DNA of 64,000 nucleotides from Aquimarina aggregata (GTDB taxonomy: Bacteria > Bacteroidota > Bacteroidia > Flavobacteriales > Flavobacteriaceae), in NCBI RefSeq assembly GCF_001632745.1, contig NZ_LQRT01000024.1, positions 372,001 to 436,000 on the forward strand. Direction: 5' to 3'. Of the stretch, positions 57,874 through 64,000 are shown one piece after another. The position numbers were made by a program, and so were the translations under genes. Every line of letters starts with the position of its first letter. Position 1 is the first letter of the stretch. The notes beneath the pieces are model-generated. The model did not search any database and was not told where the DNA came from. It saw only the letters and a program-made list of their open reading frames with translations.

Positions 57874-58758
57874 ATGGAATTAAATTTAGAGCCAATAAAA
57901 AGGGTTAAAACAATTTCCAAAGAGAAATTTCTTAAGGAATATTTTGCTTTGCAAAAACCTGTTGTAATAGAACGCTTAACCCAAGATTGGCCTGCATATC
58001 ATAAATGGAACTTAAATTACATTAATGAAGTAGCTGGCGAAAAAAAAGTGCCTTTGTATGATGATAGGCCTTTATCGTCTGAGTTTAAATTTAATGAACC
58101 ACATACATACATGAAAATGAGTGAATACATTAATTTGCTCAAAACCAAACCGACTAATTATAGGATTTTTTTATATAATTTACTTAAAGAGGTTCCGAAA
58201 CTTCAGAAGGATTTTAAATATCCAGATATAGGATTTAAATTCTTAAAAAAAATGCCGATGTTATTTTTTGGAGGAATTAATTCTAAGGTATTTATGCATT
58301 ATGATATTGATCTAGCTAATATTATTCACTTTCATTTTAACGGAGAAAAACAATGTATATTATTTCCTCCTTCGCAGACCAAGTATCTATATAAAGTCCC
58401 TCACGCTCTGATTTCTCATCAAGGTATAGATTTTCAAAACCCTGATGTTAAAAAATGGCCAGCTTTAAAAAATGCTCAAGGTTATATTACAAATCTAAAA
58501 CATGGTGAGACACTGTATATGCCAGAAGGATACTGGCACCAAATGACCTATTTAACACCTGGTTTTTCCATGAGTATAAGGTCTTATCCTAAGAAAACTT
58601 TAAATTTTATAAAAGCAGTATATAATGTTTTTATCATGAGACACTTTGATAATGTTATGCGAAAAACAAGAGGAGAGAAGTGGATGAATTATAAAAATGA
58701 AAAAGCTATACTTCGTACCAATAAAAGGAATGGATACTTAATTAATGATGACCAATGA
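57874..58758 (+). CDS. Cupin-like JmjC-type Fe(II)/2-oxoglutarate dioxygenase
   Basis: A 294-residue protein of the cupin_8/JmjC fold. The N-terminal QKPVVIERLTQDWPAYHKW is the characteristic opening. The facial triad is present: His142 and Asp144 in FMHYDIDL and His222 in MPEGYWHQM. Such enzymes hydroxylate residues of proteins or peptides, for example Asp, Asn or His. It follows bioB on the plus strand and converges on the double-glycine peptide genes, 69 bases away. A role in modifying those peptides is possible but not shown. Confidence 0.87.
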   Translation: MELNLEPIKRVKTISKEKFLKEYFALQKPVVIERLTQDWPAYHKWNLNYINEVAGEKKVPLYDDRPLSSEFKFNEPHTYMKMSEYINLLKTKPTNYRIFLYNLLKEVPKLQKDFKYPDIGFKFLKKMPMLFFGGINSKVFMHYDIDLANIIHFHFNGEKQCILFPPSQTKYLYKVPHALISHQGIDFQNPDVKKWPALKNAQGYITNLKHGETLYMPEGYWHQMTYLTPGFSMSIRSYPKKTLNFIKAVYNVFIMRHFDNVMRKTRGEKWMNYKNEKAILRTNKRNGYLINDDQ

Positions 58759-58774
58759 GTAACTATAATATATA

Positions 58775-58818
58775 AAAACAAAACCTTATATAAATTAAAT
58801 AATAAGGTTTTGTTTTTT
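58775..58818. terminator. Bidirectional terminator
   Basis: A perfect 15-bp stem (58775-58789 with 58802-58816) with A and T runs at the ends lies between the JmjC-type gene and the peptide genes. It ends transcription from both sides. Confidence 0.93.
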
Positions 58819-58827
58819 CTAAATGTA

Positions 58828-58989
58828 TTATAAAATCGGAGTAAATTTTTTAATGTTATCGTACCATTCGATAGCTTCTTCTACTGCATCTACAATATCA
58901 TCAATCCAATCTCCTAACCCTCCTCCTTGAGTTTGGGTAATTTCTTGAATATTTAGTTCTGTGACATTTAATTGCTTTACATTCTTCAT
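58828..58989 (-). CDS. Double-glycine leader peptide A (candidate bacteriocin or signalling peptide)
   Basis: A 53-residue peptide. The leader (1-23) has the LNVTELNIQEITQTQGG pattern seen in precursors exported by C39-type ABC transporters. Cleavage after Gly23 would release 30 residues starting GLGDWIDD, with Asp/Glu, Val/Ile and Trp spaced for an amphipathic helix, then a basic KK and FTPIL end. No Cys is present, so thioether or disulfide links are excluded. It is the second of two tandem peptide genes, 31 bases after peptide B, and ends 10 bases before a strong terminator. Confidence 0.75.
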   Translation of the reverse strand: MKNVKQLNVTELNIQEITQTQGGGLGDWIDDIVDAVEEAIEWYDNIKKFTPIL

Positions 58990-59020
58990 GTTTTGTTGTT
59001 TTTAAGATTTGTAATTAGTT

Positions 59021-59176
59021 CTAATTAGATTGATCAAAAACACCAGCTTCTCTCATCAAGTCTTTTATCTTTTCAATTTGATATTGAATGTATTCCTCTA
59101 TCCAATTTCCACCGTCAATTGATCTCATTTCTGCAGTGTTTAGTTCTTTAATGTCACACTTTTCTGTTTTTTTCAT
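59021..59176 (-). CDS. Double-glycine leader peptide B (candidate bacteriocin or signalling peptide)
   Basis: A 51-residue peptide. The leader (1-23) reads KELNTAEMRSIDGG, a textbook double-glycine leader. The core of 28 residues begins NWIEEYIQYQIEKIKDLM and is Glu/Lys/Ile-rich, likely an amphipathic helix. Its only Cys, residue 7, is in the leader. Both cores share a WI-(D/E)-(D/E) start, suggesting common origin or a two-peptide pair. It is the first gene of the peptide unit, with a possible -7 box upstream at 59208-59215. Confidence 0.75.
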   Translation of the reverse strand: MKKTEKCDIKELNTAEMRSIDGGNWIEEYIQYQIEKIKDLMREAGVFDQSN

Positions 59177-59207
59177 TTTTTGAAGTTTTAGATGTTATTT
59201 TCAAATT

Positions 59208-59215
59208 CAAACATA
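59208..59215 (-). promoter_or_regulatory. Possible -7 box of the peptide genes
   Basis: Read on the minus strand this is TATGTTTG, 31 bases before peptide B. A well-spaced -33 TTG is not found. Confidence 0.4.
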
Positions 59216-59349
59216 TAGTAGAATGGTCTCAAATTATGAGAATATGATTTTAATATTGAATTAGAAATGGATTCAACTATGTTCAAAAGAAAATGAATAA
59301 GGAAGTATTATGATCTTATACAAACAAGAATATTATTAATAAAAGTATA

Positions 59350-59862
59350 TTAGAAAGGGATAAGTTCATTAACTTTTTCGAAGACCAGATGAGTCTCCCA
59401 GCCACGGTATAAAAGGTAATCAACTAACTTTTTTCGTTGTTTGTTTTTTTCTGATTCACGAATTTTATCAAACTTCTTTTCTGCGAGTTCATGAAAGGTA
59501 GTTAGGTAGTCTTTGTCTGAGATTTCTTTAAGAGCTGTTTTTATATTGTATTCAGAAATTTCACGAAATTTAAGTTCTTTAATTATACGTTGTTTACCCC
59601 ATTTCTTGATTCGAAATTTTCCTCGGGCAAAACTTTGTGCAAATCGTTCTTCATTCAAGAAATTATGTTCTAGAAGGTGTAAAATGATTTTTTCTTTGGC
59701 TTCAGGAATTAAGTGCATTGTAGCCAGTTTATTCATAATATCTTTATGACAACGTTCCTGATATGCACAATACCGCTCCATTTTGCTAGTAGCTTCTTTA
59801 ACTGTTATAGATTGTTGCATTCGATTGTACATTGGCATAAAGGTACAACGCTTTTGCAACAC
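59350..59862 (-). CDS. recX: Regulatory protein RecX
   Basis: RecX-type proteins limit RecA activity. The 170-residue helical repeat protein has the family pattern: ATSKMERYCAYQERCHKDI, then FLNEERFAQSFARGKFRIKKWGKQRIIKELKFREISEYNI, then a third repeat with LVDYLLYRGWETHLVFEKV. The true start may be at 59838, 59832 or 59820, since the first residues before MQQSITVKEA are atypical. It lies 3 bases after the unknown gene and 173 bases before peptide B, so it may be part of the exporter transcript. Confidence 0.88.
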   Translation of the reverse strand: MLQKRCTFMPMYNRMQQSITVKEATSKMERYCAYQERCHKDIMNKLATMHLIPEAKEKIILHLLEHNFLNEERFAQSFARGKFRIKKWGKQRIIKELKFREISEYNIKTALKEISDKDYLTTFHELAEKKFDKIRESEKNKQRKKLVDYLLYRGWETHLVFEKVNELIPF

Positions 59863-59865
59863 CTT

Positions 59866-60348
59866 TTATAATTGAGCTTCTAAAATTAGCAACTTATTGG
59901 TAATGATATCTTTTTTAGAGAGTCTTTTCTTTTTTAAAAAAGTTCTTACTTTTCTTTCTTCTGGCTTGTCTTTTATATCGGTTAGAAGATTTTTTCGAGT
60001 AAGCTTTCGCAACTCTAGTGGGGCATATTTTGTTTTGTAATAATAGGTATCAAATAATAGCCACTCGGGCATTATTTTTTTGTTTTCCTTATAAATATGA
60101 ATCCAGTCGTTATGGCCAATAAATTCGCAAAAATTTCCATTAGGTAATATGGTAAAATGAAAAGGATCTATTTCATGATCACTATCAATATCAGAATTAA
60201 TAATACGAATAAGATTGTCTAGATTTAATGGATTGTCGGCATAGAACAAAAGTGTTTCTAATTTATGTGTGATGTCATAAGCTTCAATTTTATTCATTTC
60301 ATCAAAATGCTTTACAATTTCATGAAGTATTTTCTTGTCGTTTTTCAT
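59866..60348 (-). CDS. Uncharacterised soluble protein between exporter and recX
   Basis: A 160-residue protein without signal peptide or membrane helix. The N-terminal half is acidic (HEIVKHFDEMNKIEAYDITHKLETLLFYAD), the middle has DSDHEIDPFHFTILPNGNFCEFIGHNDW, and the C-terminus is strongly basic (TFLKKKRLSKKDI). It starts 12 bases after the adaptor gene, so it should be in the exporter transcript. A protective or regulatory role is possible; none is supported by motif. Confidence 0.7.
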   Translation of the reverse strand: MKNDKKILHEIVKHFDEMNKIEAYDITHKLETLLFYADNPLNLDNLIRIINSDIDSDHEIDPFHFTILPNGNFCEFIGHNDWIHIYKENKKIMPEWLLFDTYYYKTKYAPLELRKLTRKNLLTDIKDKPEERKVRTFLKKKRLSKKDIITNKLLILEAQL

Positions 60349-60360
60349 GATTAATAAAGG

Positions 60361-61668
60361 TTATGAATTATACTTGAAGATATTTCTAAATTGATAGAAT
60401 ACTCTTTCAATTACTTTTAAGTCTTCTGTCACAATCCCTGCAGTACCTCTCATTTCTCGATTAAAGGATAATGTTTTTCCATAAGTTGTTTGCAAGTTTT
60501 CTGGTAAGTTTACTTCGATATAATAGTTGCCTTCGTTATCTGGGGATAAGGACATACTAATTACCTCGCCTCTTACCATTCCAAATTCCTGATAAGGATA
60601 ATTATCTAGTTTGATTAGAACATTTTGGTTAGGTTTTATTTTTCCTGTATTAATTGCCGGAGTTGTTATTTTTCCGACTAAAAGTGATTTTGAAGGCAAA
60701 ATAGTTAATACATTGTCTCCGGCTTTTACAAATTGATTTTTCCCCCAAAATTTTTGGAAACTTACTTTTCCATCGATAGATGCGATAAGTAAATAATTTT
60801 GTTCCCATTGTTTAAGGGCTCTTTTTAATTGTTTGTAAGATGAGATAACATCTTTAAGGAATTTTGTTTCGTTTTGAATTTTGCTAATATTAGATCCTTG
60901 AATTCCTCTGCGAGTATTGTTTTTGGATTCTTGGATTTGAGACATATTAATCTTTGTGTTTTCATAATTACGTCTTGCCTGTAAGTACTCTAATTCTTTG
61001 TTTTCAAACTCTACTTTAGAAATTACACCTTTGGTATATAACCCTTTGGTACGTTCTAAATCTTGTTTTCTAAACTCTAATTCTTTTTTTTCTAGTTCTC
61101 TTTGAGTCTGTAATACTTGTATTCTACCATTTAATTCAGATAGCGTTTGTTGACCAGAAATAGCTTCCATAGAAAAAGGTTTTAAATTTTTATTCAAAAT
61201 AAAATCAGTAAATGATTTTTCAAATAAGGCATAATCTTGTTCCAATTCTCCAAGAGATAAATGTGCTGTTTTATCTATAGGAAACTCAAAATTCTGATAG
61301 TCTAAACGCAGCGTGTCTACGATACTTTTTAGTTGTAAGAAATCTTCGAAATTTGCAGTATTTTCGATAACAGCAAGTATTTGTCCATGTTTTACATATT
61401 CTTGATCTTTAACCAAAAGCTTAAGAATTCTTCCACTATTTTTTGCTTCAATTTTTTCTACTGGGACTTCGGTTGTAATAGTGATGTTTGAAGTAACCAT
61501 ATCTGGATATTCTACAATGCAACTAGCTCCAACGATTAACATTAGAATGAAGAAAACCACTGTGATCCCCCAACGAGTCATCCAACTTGGGGGATTACTT
61601 AATATTTCTTGGACCTCTTCTGAGCGTAATTCTAATTCTTTAAGTTTATTTTTTTCTATATCATTCAT
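60361..61668 (-). CDS. HlyD family periplasmic adaptor (peptide exporter)
   Basis: A 435-residue membrane-fusion protein: cytoplasmic N-terminus, one membrane helix (about 31-53), a lipoyl/barrel-sandwich half (VEKIEAKNSGRILKLLVKDQEYVKHGQILAVIENT), a long coiled-coil hairpin (about 120-260), then the second lipoyl half and beta-barrel (GKITTPAINTGKIKPNQNVLIKLDNYPYQEFGMVRGEVISMSLSP). It links an inner-membrane ABC exporter to the outer membrane. Start is 16 bases after the exporter stop, forming one operon. The TolC-like partner is not in the window. Confidence 0.93.
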   Translation of the reverse strand: MNDIEKNKLKELELRSEEVQEILSNPPSWMTRWGITVVFFILMLIVGASCIVEYPDMVTSNITITTEVPVEKIEAKNSGRILKLLVKDQEYVKHGQILAVIENTANFEDFLQLKSIVDTLRLDYQNFEFPIDKTAHLSLGELEQDYALFEKSFTDFILNKNLKPFSMEAISGQQTLSELNGRIQVLQTQRELEKKELEFRKQDLERTKGLYTKGVISKVEFENKELEYLQARRNYENTKINMSQIQESKNNTRRGIQGSNISKIQNETKFLKDVISSYKQLKRALKQWEQNYLLIASIDGKVSFQKFWGKNQFVKAGDNVLTILPSKSLLVGKITTPAINTGKIKPNQNVLIKLDNYPYQEFGMVRGEVISMSLSPDNEGNYYIEVNLPENLQTTYGKTLSFNREMRGTAGIVTEDLKVIERVFYQFRNIFKYNS

Positions 61669-61684
61669 AACGATAAATATTATT

Positions 61685-63946
61685 TTAACTTATAATTGTA
61701 GCTACAGAATTACCATTAAGAAACTCTGCAGGCAATGGTTTCTTGCCATTTAATTTTTCTAATTCTAATTGGTTTTTTACCAATTCATAATAGGCTCCTT
61801 TATAGTCTAAAAGTTCTTTATGTGTTCCTTTTTCAACTATTTTTCCGTTATCCATTACTAAAATTTGATCTGCATTTTTTACTGTACTTAATCGATGTGC
61901 AATGACTACTGCAGTTCGACCTTTAAAAAATGTATTTAGATTTTCCATGATCGTTTTTTCATTGTTAGCATCTAATGCGCTTGTAGCCTCATCAAAAAAT
62001 ATAAAATCTGGATTTTTATACACAGCTCTAGCAATTAATAACCGTTGTTTTTCTCCTCCGCTGATTCCAACTCCTTCATTTCCAATTTCGGTATTGTAAC
62101 TAAGAGGTAATCTTTCTATAAAATCTTTGATATTCGCAACTTTTACAGCATGTAAAAGCTTGTCTTTATCGATGTAATCTTCTCCTAAGGCAATATTGTT
62201 TGCAATGGTATCATTAAAAATATAACCATCTTGCATAACGACGCCACAATGACCTCTCCAAGTTTTTTGTGAGATATTTTCAAAATTTTGATCCCCTATT
62301 TTAATAAGCCCTTTGTTAGGTTTGTAAAAACGCATTAAAGCTTTCATTAAAGTTGTTTTACCACTTCCAGATGCTCCAACAATTGCCGTCTTTTTATTAC
62401 GCGGAATAACAAGATTCATGTCTTTGATAATTGGTTCTTCTGCACCGATGTACCTAAAAGTTAAGTTCTCTATTTTTATATCACCTTCAGTTGGAATTTC
62501 ATAAACTTTAGCATCTTCTATGTTTTCTTCATTGTCCTGATCATGAACTTCTTTTAACCTTTCAAGACTTATTTTTGCATCTTGTGTTTCTTGAATGAAT
62601 TGTAATAATTGTGATATAGGATTATTTAATTGACCTATTATGTATTGAATAGATAACATCATCCCCAAGGAGATTTGACCACTTAAAACCAAAGAGGCAG
62701 ACGTAAAGGTGATGAGTATATTTTTGAATTGATTAATAGATGTAGAACCTATAGTCTGTGTTTGTTCTAATGTTAACCCTTGAGTTGCAACTTTAAATAG
62801 CCTAATTTGTATAAACTCCCATCCCCAGCGTTTTTGTTTCTCTGCATTATGTAACTTAATTTCTTGCATCCCTTCGATAAGTTCGATGGTTTTGCTTTGC
62901 TCATCACTCATTTGTTTAAAACGCTTATAATCTAATTCCTTTCTTTTTTTAAGGAAAAACAAAATCCAGATAACCAAAAGCGTACTTCCTATTGCAAAAA
63001 TTCCAAATATCTTAAGATTGTAATAGGCCAAAACTGCACTAAAAACTACGATGTTAAAAAAGGAAAACAGGGTATTTAAAGAAGAATTGGTTAGTAGTTT
63101 TTCAATTCTTTGATGGTCATTAATACGTTGCATTAAATCACCGGTCATTCTAGTGTCAAAATAAGATATTGGAAGGTTCATTAGCTTGATAAAGAAATCG
63201 GAAACTAGTGAAATGTTGATTCTGGTACTTAGGTGCAGTAATATCCAACCCCTTATGGCATCAATACTAATTTGACCAATGAACAACATAATTTGCGCTC
63301 CTAGGATTAGATGTATAAAGTTGATGTCTTGATTTTGAATTCCAATATCAACAATACTCTGTGTTAAAAAAGGAAATATTAATTGTAGTAAACTTCCAGC
63401 TAACAATCCAACTAGAAGTTGCATCATTAAACTTTTATATTTAAATAAATATCTAAATAAGAATGAGAATCCAGATTTACCATTGTTTACTTTATCCCAA
63501 TTGGTATCATAAAATTTAGGTGTTGTATCCAGAGATAAAATAAGCCCCTCTTGGGTTTTTTCATTAGCATTGTTTCCAATCCATGCTTCTACAAACTCCT
63601 TTTTGCTATAATCGATCAACCCATAAGATGGATCTGAGATATATACTCTGTCATTTTTAATTTTATAGACTACTACAAAATGGTATTTTTTCCAGTGTAC
63701 TATGCATGGTAGTGGCACATCTTCTTTAAAAGTTTCATAATCGGTTTTTATACCAATTGATTTGAAACCCATGTTTTCTGAAGCTTCGGCAAGTCCTAAA
63801 AAAGAACTTCCTGTCCTTGTTGTTTGACTTAAGTTGCGTATGGTTTCCAGAGGAATAACTTTGCCATGATGTTTGCTTATAATTCGCAAACATGTTGGAC
63901 CACAATCTTTGGCTCCGGGTTGTTTATAGAAAGGAAAAGTTTTCAA
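61685..63946 (-). CDS. Peptidase C39-containing ABC exporter (double-glycine peptide processing)
   Basis: A 753-residue ABC transporter of the bacteriocin-processing class. Residues 1-150 are a C39 peptidase with Gln9, Cys15 (KDCGPTC), His89 (YHFVVVY) and Asp105 (SDPSYG), complete for cleaving GG leaders. Six membrane helices follow (about 160-450) and an ATPase with GASGSGKTTLMK, GISGGEKQRLLIAR and FIFFDEATSALD. Translation begins at TTG (63946): the frame gives the standard MK-TFPFYKQPGAKDCGPTC start and no ATG is near. It should process and export peptides A and B with the HlyD adaptor. Confidence 0.94.
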   Translation of the reverse strand: MKTFPFYKQPGAKDCGPTCLRIISKHHGKVIPLETIRNLSQTTRTGSSFLGLAEASENMGFKSIGIKTDYETFKEDVPLPCIVHWKKYHFVVVYKIKNDRVYISDPSYGLIDYSKKEFVEAWIGNNANEKTQEGLILSLDTTPKFYDTNWDKVNNGKSGFSFLFRYLFKYKSLMMQLLVGLLAGSLLQLIFPFLTQSIVDIGIQNQDINFIHLILGAQIMLFIGQISIDAIRGWILLHLSTRINISLVSDFFIKLMNLPISYFDTRMTGDLMQRINDHQRIEKLLTNSSLNTLFSFFNIVVFSAVLAYYNLKIFGIFAIGSTLLVIWILFFLKKRKELDYKRFKQMSDEQSKTIELIEGMQEIKLHNAEKQKRWGWEFIQIRLFKVATQGLTLEQTQTIGSTSINQFKNILITFTSASLVLSGQISLGMMLSIQYIIGQLNNPISQLLQFIQETQDAKISLERLKEVHDQDNEENIEDAKVYEIPTEGDIKIENLTFRYIGAEEPIIKDMNLVIPRNKKTAIVGASGSGKTTLMKALMRFYKPNKGLIKIGDQNFENISQKTWRGHCGVVMQDGYIFNDTIANNIALGEDYIDKDKLLHAVKVANIKDFIERLPLSYNTEIGNEGVGISGGEKQRLLIARAVYKNPDFIFFDEATSALDANNEKTIMENLNTFFKGRTAVVIAHRLSTVKNADQILVMDNGKIVEKGTHKELLDYKGAYYELVKNQLELEKLNGKKPLPAEFLNGNSVATIIS

Positions 63947-64000
63947 ATTCTTGTATTTTATGTTCTGTTTGTATATCGTTTAAACCAGTGTTAAATCAAC
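63947..64000 (-). other. Upstream region of the exporter gene, cut by window edge
   Basis: An AT-rich 54-base region with no certain promoter. More peptide or regulatory genes may lie beyond the edge. Confidence 0.3.

Follow-up and report, generated by a model that had tools for sequence, protein, structure and literature searches.

Two double-glycine peptide genes beside an Aquimarina lanthipeptide exporter probably belong to a dispersed regulon served by a different C39 exporter

The window analyzed here is a stretch of 64,000 nucleotides (nt) from a 6.19-Mb Aquimarina genome (own genome, G000; contig C24, positions 372001 to 436000). Toward its end lie two consecutive short genes, peptides 1 and 2, whose products have leaders ending in double glycine (GG), and, on the same strand, a C39 peptidase/ABC exporter with an HlyD-type adaptor (Table 1). 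A reading made from the sequence alone (the sequence-only reading) had joined these genes into one secretion system. Our analysis points to a different arrangement: peptides 1 and 2 probably make up a small operon, driven by a palindrome-bearing promoter of its own, and encode unmodified GG precursors within a many-peptide regulon of a second exporter-adaptor pair, exp2/HlyD2, not within the system of the window exporter. Most likely, the two peptides are members of a dispersed regulon of GG peptides served by exp2.

Peptides 1 and 2 are real genes. The two consecutive GG-leader frames are exactly as the sequence-only reading described them, and they score 21.5 and 16.9 on a GG-leader profile; of 1255 background GG sites in Aquimarina open reading frames of at least 300 amino acids (aa), none reached the score of either peptide. 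The genes lie 31 bp apart, with RecX 173 bp upstream of the pair. Among 66 Aquimarina genomes, the own genome included, peptide-2 orthologues occur in 10 (E ≤ 1.2 × 10−5; matches in seven more genomes, weaker and reaching E 0.1, were not counted). In the nine others the gene holds the same location, adjoining Cupin_8 and BioB, and Cupin_8 adjoins either peptide 2 or its peptide-1 partner. Relative to the window copy, the ratio of nonsynonymous to synonymous substitution rates (dN/dS) of peptide 2 is 0.13 to 0.39 (nine pairs), and over all 45 pairs summed, the ratio of the nonsynonymous to the synonymous proportion of differences (pN/pS) amounts to 0.34 for the leaders and 0.45 for the cores; judged by these codon comparisons, peptide 2 is under purifying selection. 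Peptide 1 has a single clear orthologue, in G067 (57% identity; E = 1.4 × 10−12; pN 0.25, pS 0.80), where the peptide-1 and peptide-2 families stand side by side, adjoining the exp2 cluster; four further genomes gave weak matches or nothing better than E 4.6 × 10−4.

As had been claimed, both cores are free of cysteine; one cysteine occurs in the peptide-1 leader. Both cores are amphipathic and acidic (−3 and −6). A search of 5.8 billion clustered proteins retrieved for each peptide itself or near-identical copies and, for peptide 2, additionally an A. aggregata homologue (77%) recorded as "hypothetical protein." Neither peptide reached a curated family model; the best scores were 13.5 bits for TIGR01847 (cutoff, 15.7) and 15.6 bits for ComC (cutoff, 20.4). 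Both peptides are most likely secreted; a bacteriocin-like use is the default reading, with peptide 2 also a candidate for a signal. No gene for immunity was identified. The hairpin beyond peptide 2 (−16.2 kcal/mol; z = −5.3; equal stability in 0 of 200 shuffles) is likely a two-way terminator.

The distribution of peptide 2 follows that of exp2. With presence set at an identity of at least 76% (which excludes G022, at 56%; G079, where a contig end truncates the gene, was retained), exp2 was found in 20 of the 66 genomes: in all 10 that carry peptide 2, versus 10 of the 56 others (Fisher P = 8.8 × 10−7; 2.9 × 10−6 without the own genome). The window exporter, called present at an identity of at least 83%, occurs in 2 of 10 peptide-2 genomes versus 3 of 56 others (P = 0.16); all of these P values ignore kinship among the genomes. 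The sequence-only reading had suggested searching related genomes for the leaders next to C39 exporters: in such genomes peptide 2 is conserved and tracks exp2, but it does not track the window exporter. The leaders were compared as well. Many of the leaders encoded at exp2 loci fit the pattern MKNLxxxxVxELxxxExxxIxGG, and when exp2-type leaders were scored against the lanthipeptide type (training excluded orthologues of peptides 1 and 2 and frames judged by eye to be noise), the exp2 type was favored by +22.4 bits for peptide 1 and +31.7 bits for peptide 2, versus −46.8 bits for the own genome's lanthipeptide precursor, LanA. Leave-one-out classification was correct for 42/42 exp2-type and 4/5 lanthipeptide leaders. 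As a separate observation, the exp2 locus of G029 carries six tandem identical genes for a 51-aa GG peptide (L144:10111-11231).

Peptides 1 and 2 also share a promoter element with the exp2 peptide cluster. An upstream alignment revealed a palindrome, 11 bp, and a −7-like box; this arrangement precedes peptide 1 and recurs in the operons of the nine other peptide-2 genomes. TAnnTTTG is the flavobacterial sigma-A −7 consensus (PMC9723704). Sites were counted with a general composite pattern, TCTCA-N5-TGAGA-N11-TAnnnTTG, and the reversed pattern served as the control. Searched for by itself, the palindrome gave 15 sites in the own genome (control, 9); 5 of these 15 lie inside a 19-kb span, where peptide 1 has one and the exp2 peptide cluster the other four. 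The exact composite occurs six times (control, 0): at peptide 1, at four places in the exp2 peptide cluster 17 to 19 kb away, and once on contig C5. When up to one mismatch was allowed, 10 sites were found (control, 2), 9 of which precede a GG-leader frame, three of these on other contigs; the tenth, on C5, stands before a 398-aa protein. Across the genus, 61 exact sites were found in 21 of 66 genomes (control, 2), and a GG-leader frame follows within 400 nt at 54 of the 60 sites read, versus 1098 of 4280 random positions (26%) in the same loci. The composite is present in 17 of 20 exp2 genomes versus 4 of 46 others (P = 2 × 10−9). A consensus −7 box, TAnnTTTG, is found at 8 of the 60 sites, all of them promoters of peptide 1 or peptide 2; the remaining 52 carry other, weaker −7 boxes. 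In 346 genomes of the order, the own genome included, eight further exact sites turned up in seven genomes (control, 1), but no GG-leader frame follows any of them, so the element looks confined to Aquimarina in that sample. A sigma-70 scan was uninformative (6 sites versus 6.1 in shuffles). In locus L244 (G085:C73), two composites 103 bp apart precede short GG peptides of another leader type; the composites directly follow a tail-less paralogue of the winged-helix proteins described below, in a genome without exp2 at our cutoff.

Several observations weigh against assigning the peptides to exp2. Three exp2 genomes lack the exact element (G058, G079, and G083), and four genomes carry the element without exp2 (G003, G006, G015, and G085). 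In 2 of the 10 peptide-2 genomes, G056 and G067, the promoter has the palindrome but not the exact composite. The co-occurrence P values exaggerate the association because the genomes are related, and the leader test rests on five lanthipeptide leaders, one of which was misclassified. In addition, exp2 lies 21 kb from the peptides and the window exporter 2.5 kb, and one exporter may serve many leaders. Under the exp2 reading, which we nevertheless favor, the C39 domain of exp2 would cut peptides 1 and 2 after GG, and exp2 would export their acidic helical cores. The composite element would bind an activator; we take it as an activator site because the palindrome occupies the position expected of a −33 box. 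The peptides would be used in class II bacteriocin-like antagonism, with peptide 2 possibly an inducing signal.

A more far-reaching proposal, that peptide 2 is a secreted pheromone inducing the whole GG-peptide regulon via a membrane TPR-AraC regulator, is in our view doubtful. In lactic acid bacteria, inducing peptides act as such secreted signals. All eight sites with the consensus −7 box stand before peptide 1 or 2, peptide 2 keeps one location and one core type in the nine other genomes, and TPR-AraC proteins (signal peptide, TPR, transmembrane segment, and helix-turn-helix [HTH]) are encoded at the own exp2 locus and at L142 to L148. However, peptide 2 is missing from 10 of the 20 exp2 genomes, and no TPR-AraC protein was found in the fetched parts of L135 to L138 and L140, whose flanks lie partly outside. 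The membrane TPR-AraC proteins and the winged-helix proteins are candidate binders of the palindrome.

Processing and export of both peptides by the C39 exporter and HlyD adaptor next to them, as the sequence-only reading proposed, is unlikely. Both genes are complete and on the same strand, the exporter 2.5 kb from the peptides, and the own genome and G067 each carry the window exporter plus both peptides. However, this exporter is missing from 8 of 10 peptide-2 genomes, the leaders of peptides 1 and 2 score as exp2 type and not lanthipeptide type, and the window edge (base 64000) splits an operon with precursors of its own. The next gene upstream of the exporter, which reaches into the window from 63980, encodes a 529-aa VKOR/thioredoxin-like protein. 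Beyond it lie LanC, two precursors, a LanB C-terminal protein (thiopeptide type), and a LanB N-terminal protein (G000:C24:437604-442794). The precursors are identical, 55 aa long, and Cys containing (MNKLNLNKETISKMDNDEMASVNGG followed by IEICLASCKRSTRKGKPCCEDPTNLVITIE), and match NF038153 (35.8 bits; cutoff, 22); the LanC cyclase matches PF05147 (152.9 bits), and the split LanB matches Lant_dehydr_N and Lant_dehydr_C (491.8 and 230.1 bits, both over the cutoff). The window exporter and adaptor belong to this class I lanthipeptide cluster and are probably not the peptides' own pair.

The loci of related exporters bear this out. The six closest orthologues of the window exporter are all from Aquimarina (83 to 89% identity). 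Where the window exporter has its TTG start, orthologues have ATG. Six stretches around them were compared (L032 to L037, of which L036 and L037 are short contigs): Cys-containing precursors with lanthipeptide-type leaders are present in five, and the 160-aa protein and RecX are reached in five. The leader motif used in an earlier reading of these loci misses peptide 2 itself, and the absence of the peptides was therefore rechecked with tblastn, which found no relative of peptide 1 or 2 in the six stretches (best E, 0.065). The palindrome is also absent from all six, and the gap between RecX and Cupin_8 is just 8 to 31 bp in L032, L033, and L036. Thus, the conservation of the peptide frames at related exporter loci on which the proposed pairing had been staked was not seen, and by that test the pairing fails, although the peptides as such are conserved. 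L033 to L036 are apparently the same records as G012, G019, G067, and G063, so the two collections are not independent; L035 is apparently the G067 contig, and the G067 peptides lie outside the L035 stretch.

Two further explanations appear quite improbable. One holds that another C39 exporter of the own genome exports the peptides, an example being the widespread exporter encoded at G000:C3:180540-182741. Of the 66 genomes, 54 have a match at E ≤ 1 × 10−250, and most of these contain window-exporter relatives of about 62 to 66% identity, so a widespread exporter could serve scattered peptides; however, one found nearly everywhere cannot be linked to peptide 2, and no GG peptide was detected within 20 kb around the own C3 copy with a motif that can miss some leaders. 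The other, to which we give about as little credence, is that peptides 1 and 2 make up a two-peptide (class IIb) bacteriocin. Co-occurrence of both peptides and GxxxG motifs are hallmarks of that class. The two genes are adjacent, similar in size, and encode amphipathic peptides, but only one of the nine other peptide-2 genomes has a clear peptide-1 orthologue, and the cores are acidic and neither contains GxxxG. Finally, that peptides 1 and 2 are lanthipeptide precursors of the neighboring cluster is suggested by proximity only and is scarcely credible: we rejected this reading because a lanthionine ring needs the Cys that the cores lack, and the peptides do not match NF038153, the class I lanthipeptide leader model, whereas the precursor of the cluster itself does.

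A second kind of GG motif was found beside exp2, which is flanked by one or two winged-helix proteins of about 103 to 130 aa. The own 104-aa protein ends in a GG-leader-like motif, YTKELDATEIKSVNGG, followed by about 13 residues, SAFERLHYLAKIS. In the AlphaFold2 model of P0004, a database copy 99% identical to this protein, the fold reads H-H-H-E-E, with a block-mean predicted local distance difference test score (pLDDT) of 81 to 95 over residues 1 to 70; the tail that follows is of low confidence and contains a short helix (residues 82 to 88). Among 82 homologues, 29 are at least 100 aa long, and 23 of these carry a GG tail (16 flagged by script, 7 by eye), versus 0 of the 53 shorter ones. 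Loci were read for the best match in each of 30 of 37 genomes: the GG-tailed copy was present in 16/16 exp2 loci and in 0/13 loci without exp2. Outside the former count, L263, at a contig end with exp2 on another contig, also has a GG tail; in G058 and G083, the copy read was not the one adjacent to exp2, and in G079, exp2 is cut by the contig end.

These tails resemble GG leaders in score and in constraint. Of 20 tails scored, 13 beat all 1255 background GG sites, and the other 7 were equaled by one to seven sites. In seven comparisons with the own copy, pN was 0.05 in the leader-like part and 0.04 to 0.05 in the HTH, versus 0.23 to 0.31 after GG; conservation stops at GG, and what comes after evolves faster, the pattern of a long-leader precursor. 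That stretch is about 9 to 25 aa long and mostly lacks Cys. In the alignment, the HTH residues of the GG-tailed proteins are as conserved as in tail-less paralogues. Searching solved-structure sequences with the winged-helix protein gave weak matches alone (E, 0.075 and 0.087), and the HTH family had no match at E ≤ 1 × 10−12 in G003 and G006, both of which carry the element. The GG-tailed proteins can be read in two ways, as long-leader precursors (NHLP/N11P-like) or as regulators docking on C39. The presence of GG tails beside exp2 suggests exporter-coupled regulation; it is possible, though we put it forward tentatively, that the tail imitates or actually is a GG leader and docks on or is cut by the exporter's C39 domain, such that the activity of the regulon containing peptides 1 and 2 depends on how much precursor is waiting or how much export capacity is free.

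Among the neighboring genes, the 160-aa protein occurs in 39 of 66 Aquimarina genomes, with up to five matches per genome; in many exp2 loci its gene, at the RecX locus, has an exporter nearby. It was considered as a part of the GG system and dropped: of 20 further loci, only 3 (L183, L190, and L195) showed a C39 exporter within the stretch retrieved. The N terminus of the window adaptor (61590-61668, minus strand) has a cytosolic start, ELRSEEVQEIL, that resembles a GG leader minus the GG. A stretch like it with GG was the top-scoring background site on the GG-leader profile.

Table 1. Coordinates of the peptide genes, exporters, and neighboring features (window positions unless a contig or locus is given)
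Feature	Position	Strand	Remarks
Peptide 2 gene, 53 aa	58828-58989	-	MKNVKQLNVTELNIQEITQTQGG (23-aa GG leader), then GLGDWIDDIVDAVEEAIEWYDNIKKFTPIL (acidic amphipathic 30-aa core)
Peptide 1 gene, 51 aa	59021-59176	-	MKKTEKCDIKELNTAEMRSIDGG (23-aa GG leader), then NWIEEYIQYQIEKIKDLMREAGVFDQSN (acidic 28-aa core)
Composite promoter element	59208-59241	-	TCTCA-N5-TGAGA-N11-TATGTTTG; −7 box, 59208-59215; 32 nt before peptide 1 ATG
exp2 (C39 exporter)	G000:C24:452116-454299		33% identical to window exporter
exp2/HlyD2 exporter-adaptor pair	G000:C24:452116-455515		21 kb from the peptides
HlyD-type adaptor	60361-61668	-	Pfam HlyD_3; gene order; complete
C39 peptidase/ABC exporter	61685-63946	-	Pfam Peptidase_C39, ABC; complete
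Class I lanthipeptide cluster	G000:C24:435980-442794	same as exporter	Crosses the window edge at 436000
Hairpin, 16 pairs	58774-58817	.	Separates peptide 2 from the convergent Cupin_8 gene
Cupin_8 protein	57874-58758	+	Pfam PF13621; convergent, conserved neighbor of peptide 2
RecX	59350-59862	-	Locus anchor; not assigned to the peptide system
160-aa protein	59866-60348	-	Without Pfam/NCBIfam family; locus anchor; not assigned to the peptide system
GG-tailed winged-helix protein	L113:1168-1482	-	Outside the window; relatives in L134-L149 and L255-L284

A small peptide gene is commonly assigned to whichever exporter lies closest; in this case, the promoter element and the phylogenetic profile point elsewhere. 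The element could be used to assign orphan GG peptides across Aquimarina, and it outlines a concrete regulon in a phylum in which systems of this kind have received little study. Should the GG-tailed winged-helix proteins prove to be regulators, they would connect secretion with transcription in a new manner. In the open-licence literature, as covered by titles and opening abstract lines, no description of such an Aquimarina GG-peptide system was found.

In comparison with known systems, the peptides resemble unmodified class II bacteriocins (TIGR01847, TIGR03949, ComC, and Bacteriocin_IIc), with which they share short amphipathic cores, grouping under a common promoter element, and a GG leader in which hydrophobic and acidic positions are conserved. 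In contrast to these, they have acidic cores, reach no curated model, and come from a Gram-negative host with an adaptor and a many-peptide regulon. Bacteroidetocins (class IIf; PMC6671954) have leaders of 15 to 16 aa, at least two Cys, and a thiol oxidoreductase; like peptides 1 and 2, they are Bacteroidota peptides with a GG leader and a C39-type exporter, whereas peptides 1 and 2 have 23-aa leaders and Cys-free cores. The class I lanthipeptide clusters of Bacteroidetes (PMC7268733) have GG leaders, an often-encoded C39 protease, and a split LanB. The cluster of the window exporter has all the parts of the clusters outlined there; peptides 1 and 2, lacking Cys in their cores and having another leader type, are not, judged by sequence, substrates of that cluster. 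In the NHLP/N11P long-leader precursors (PMC2887384), a GG leader motif closes a folded-protein domain, and the genes cluster with a C39 exporter. The GG-tailed winged-helix proteins beside exp2 share this layout, but in them the domain is of the winged-helix type with HTH residues retained, and what follows GG is short and mostly Cys free.

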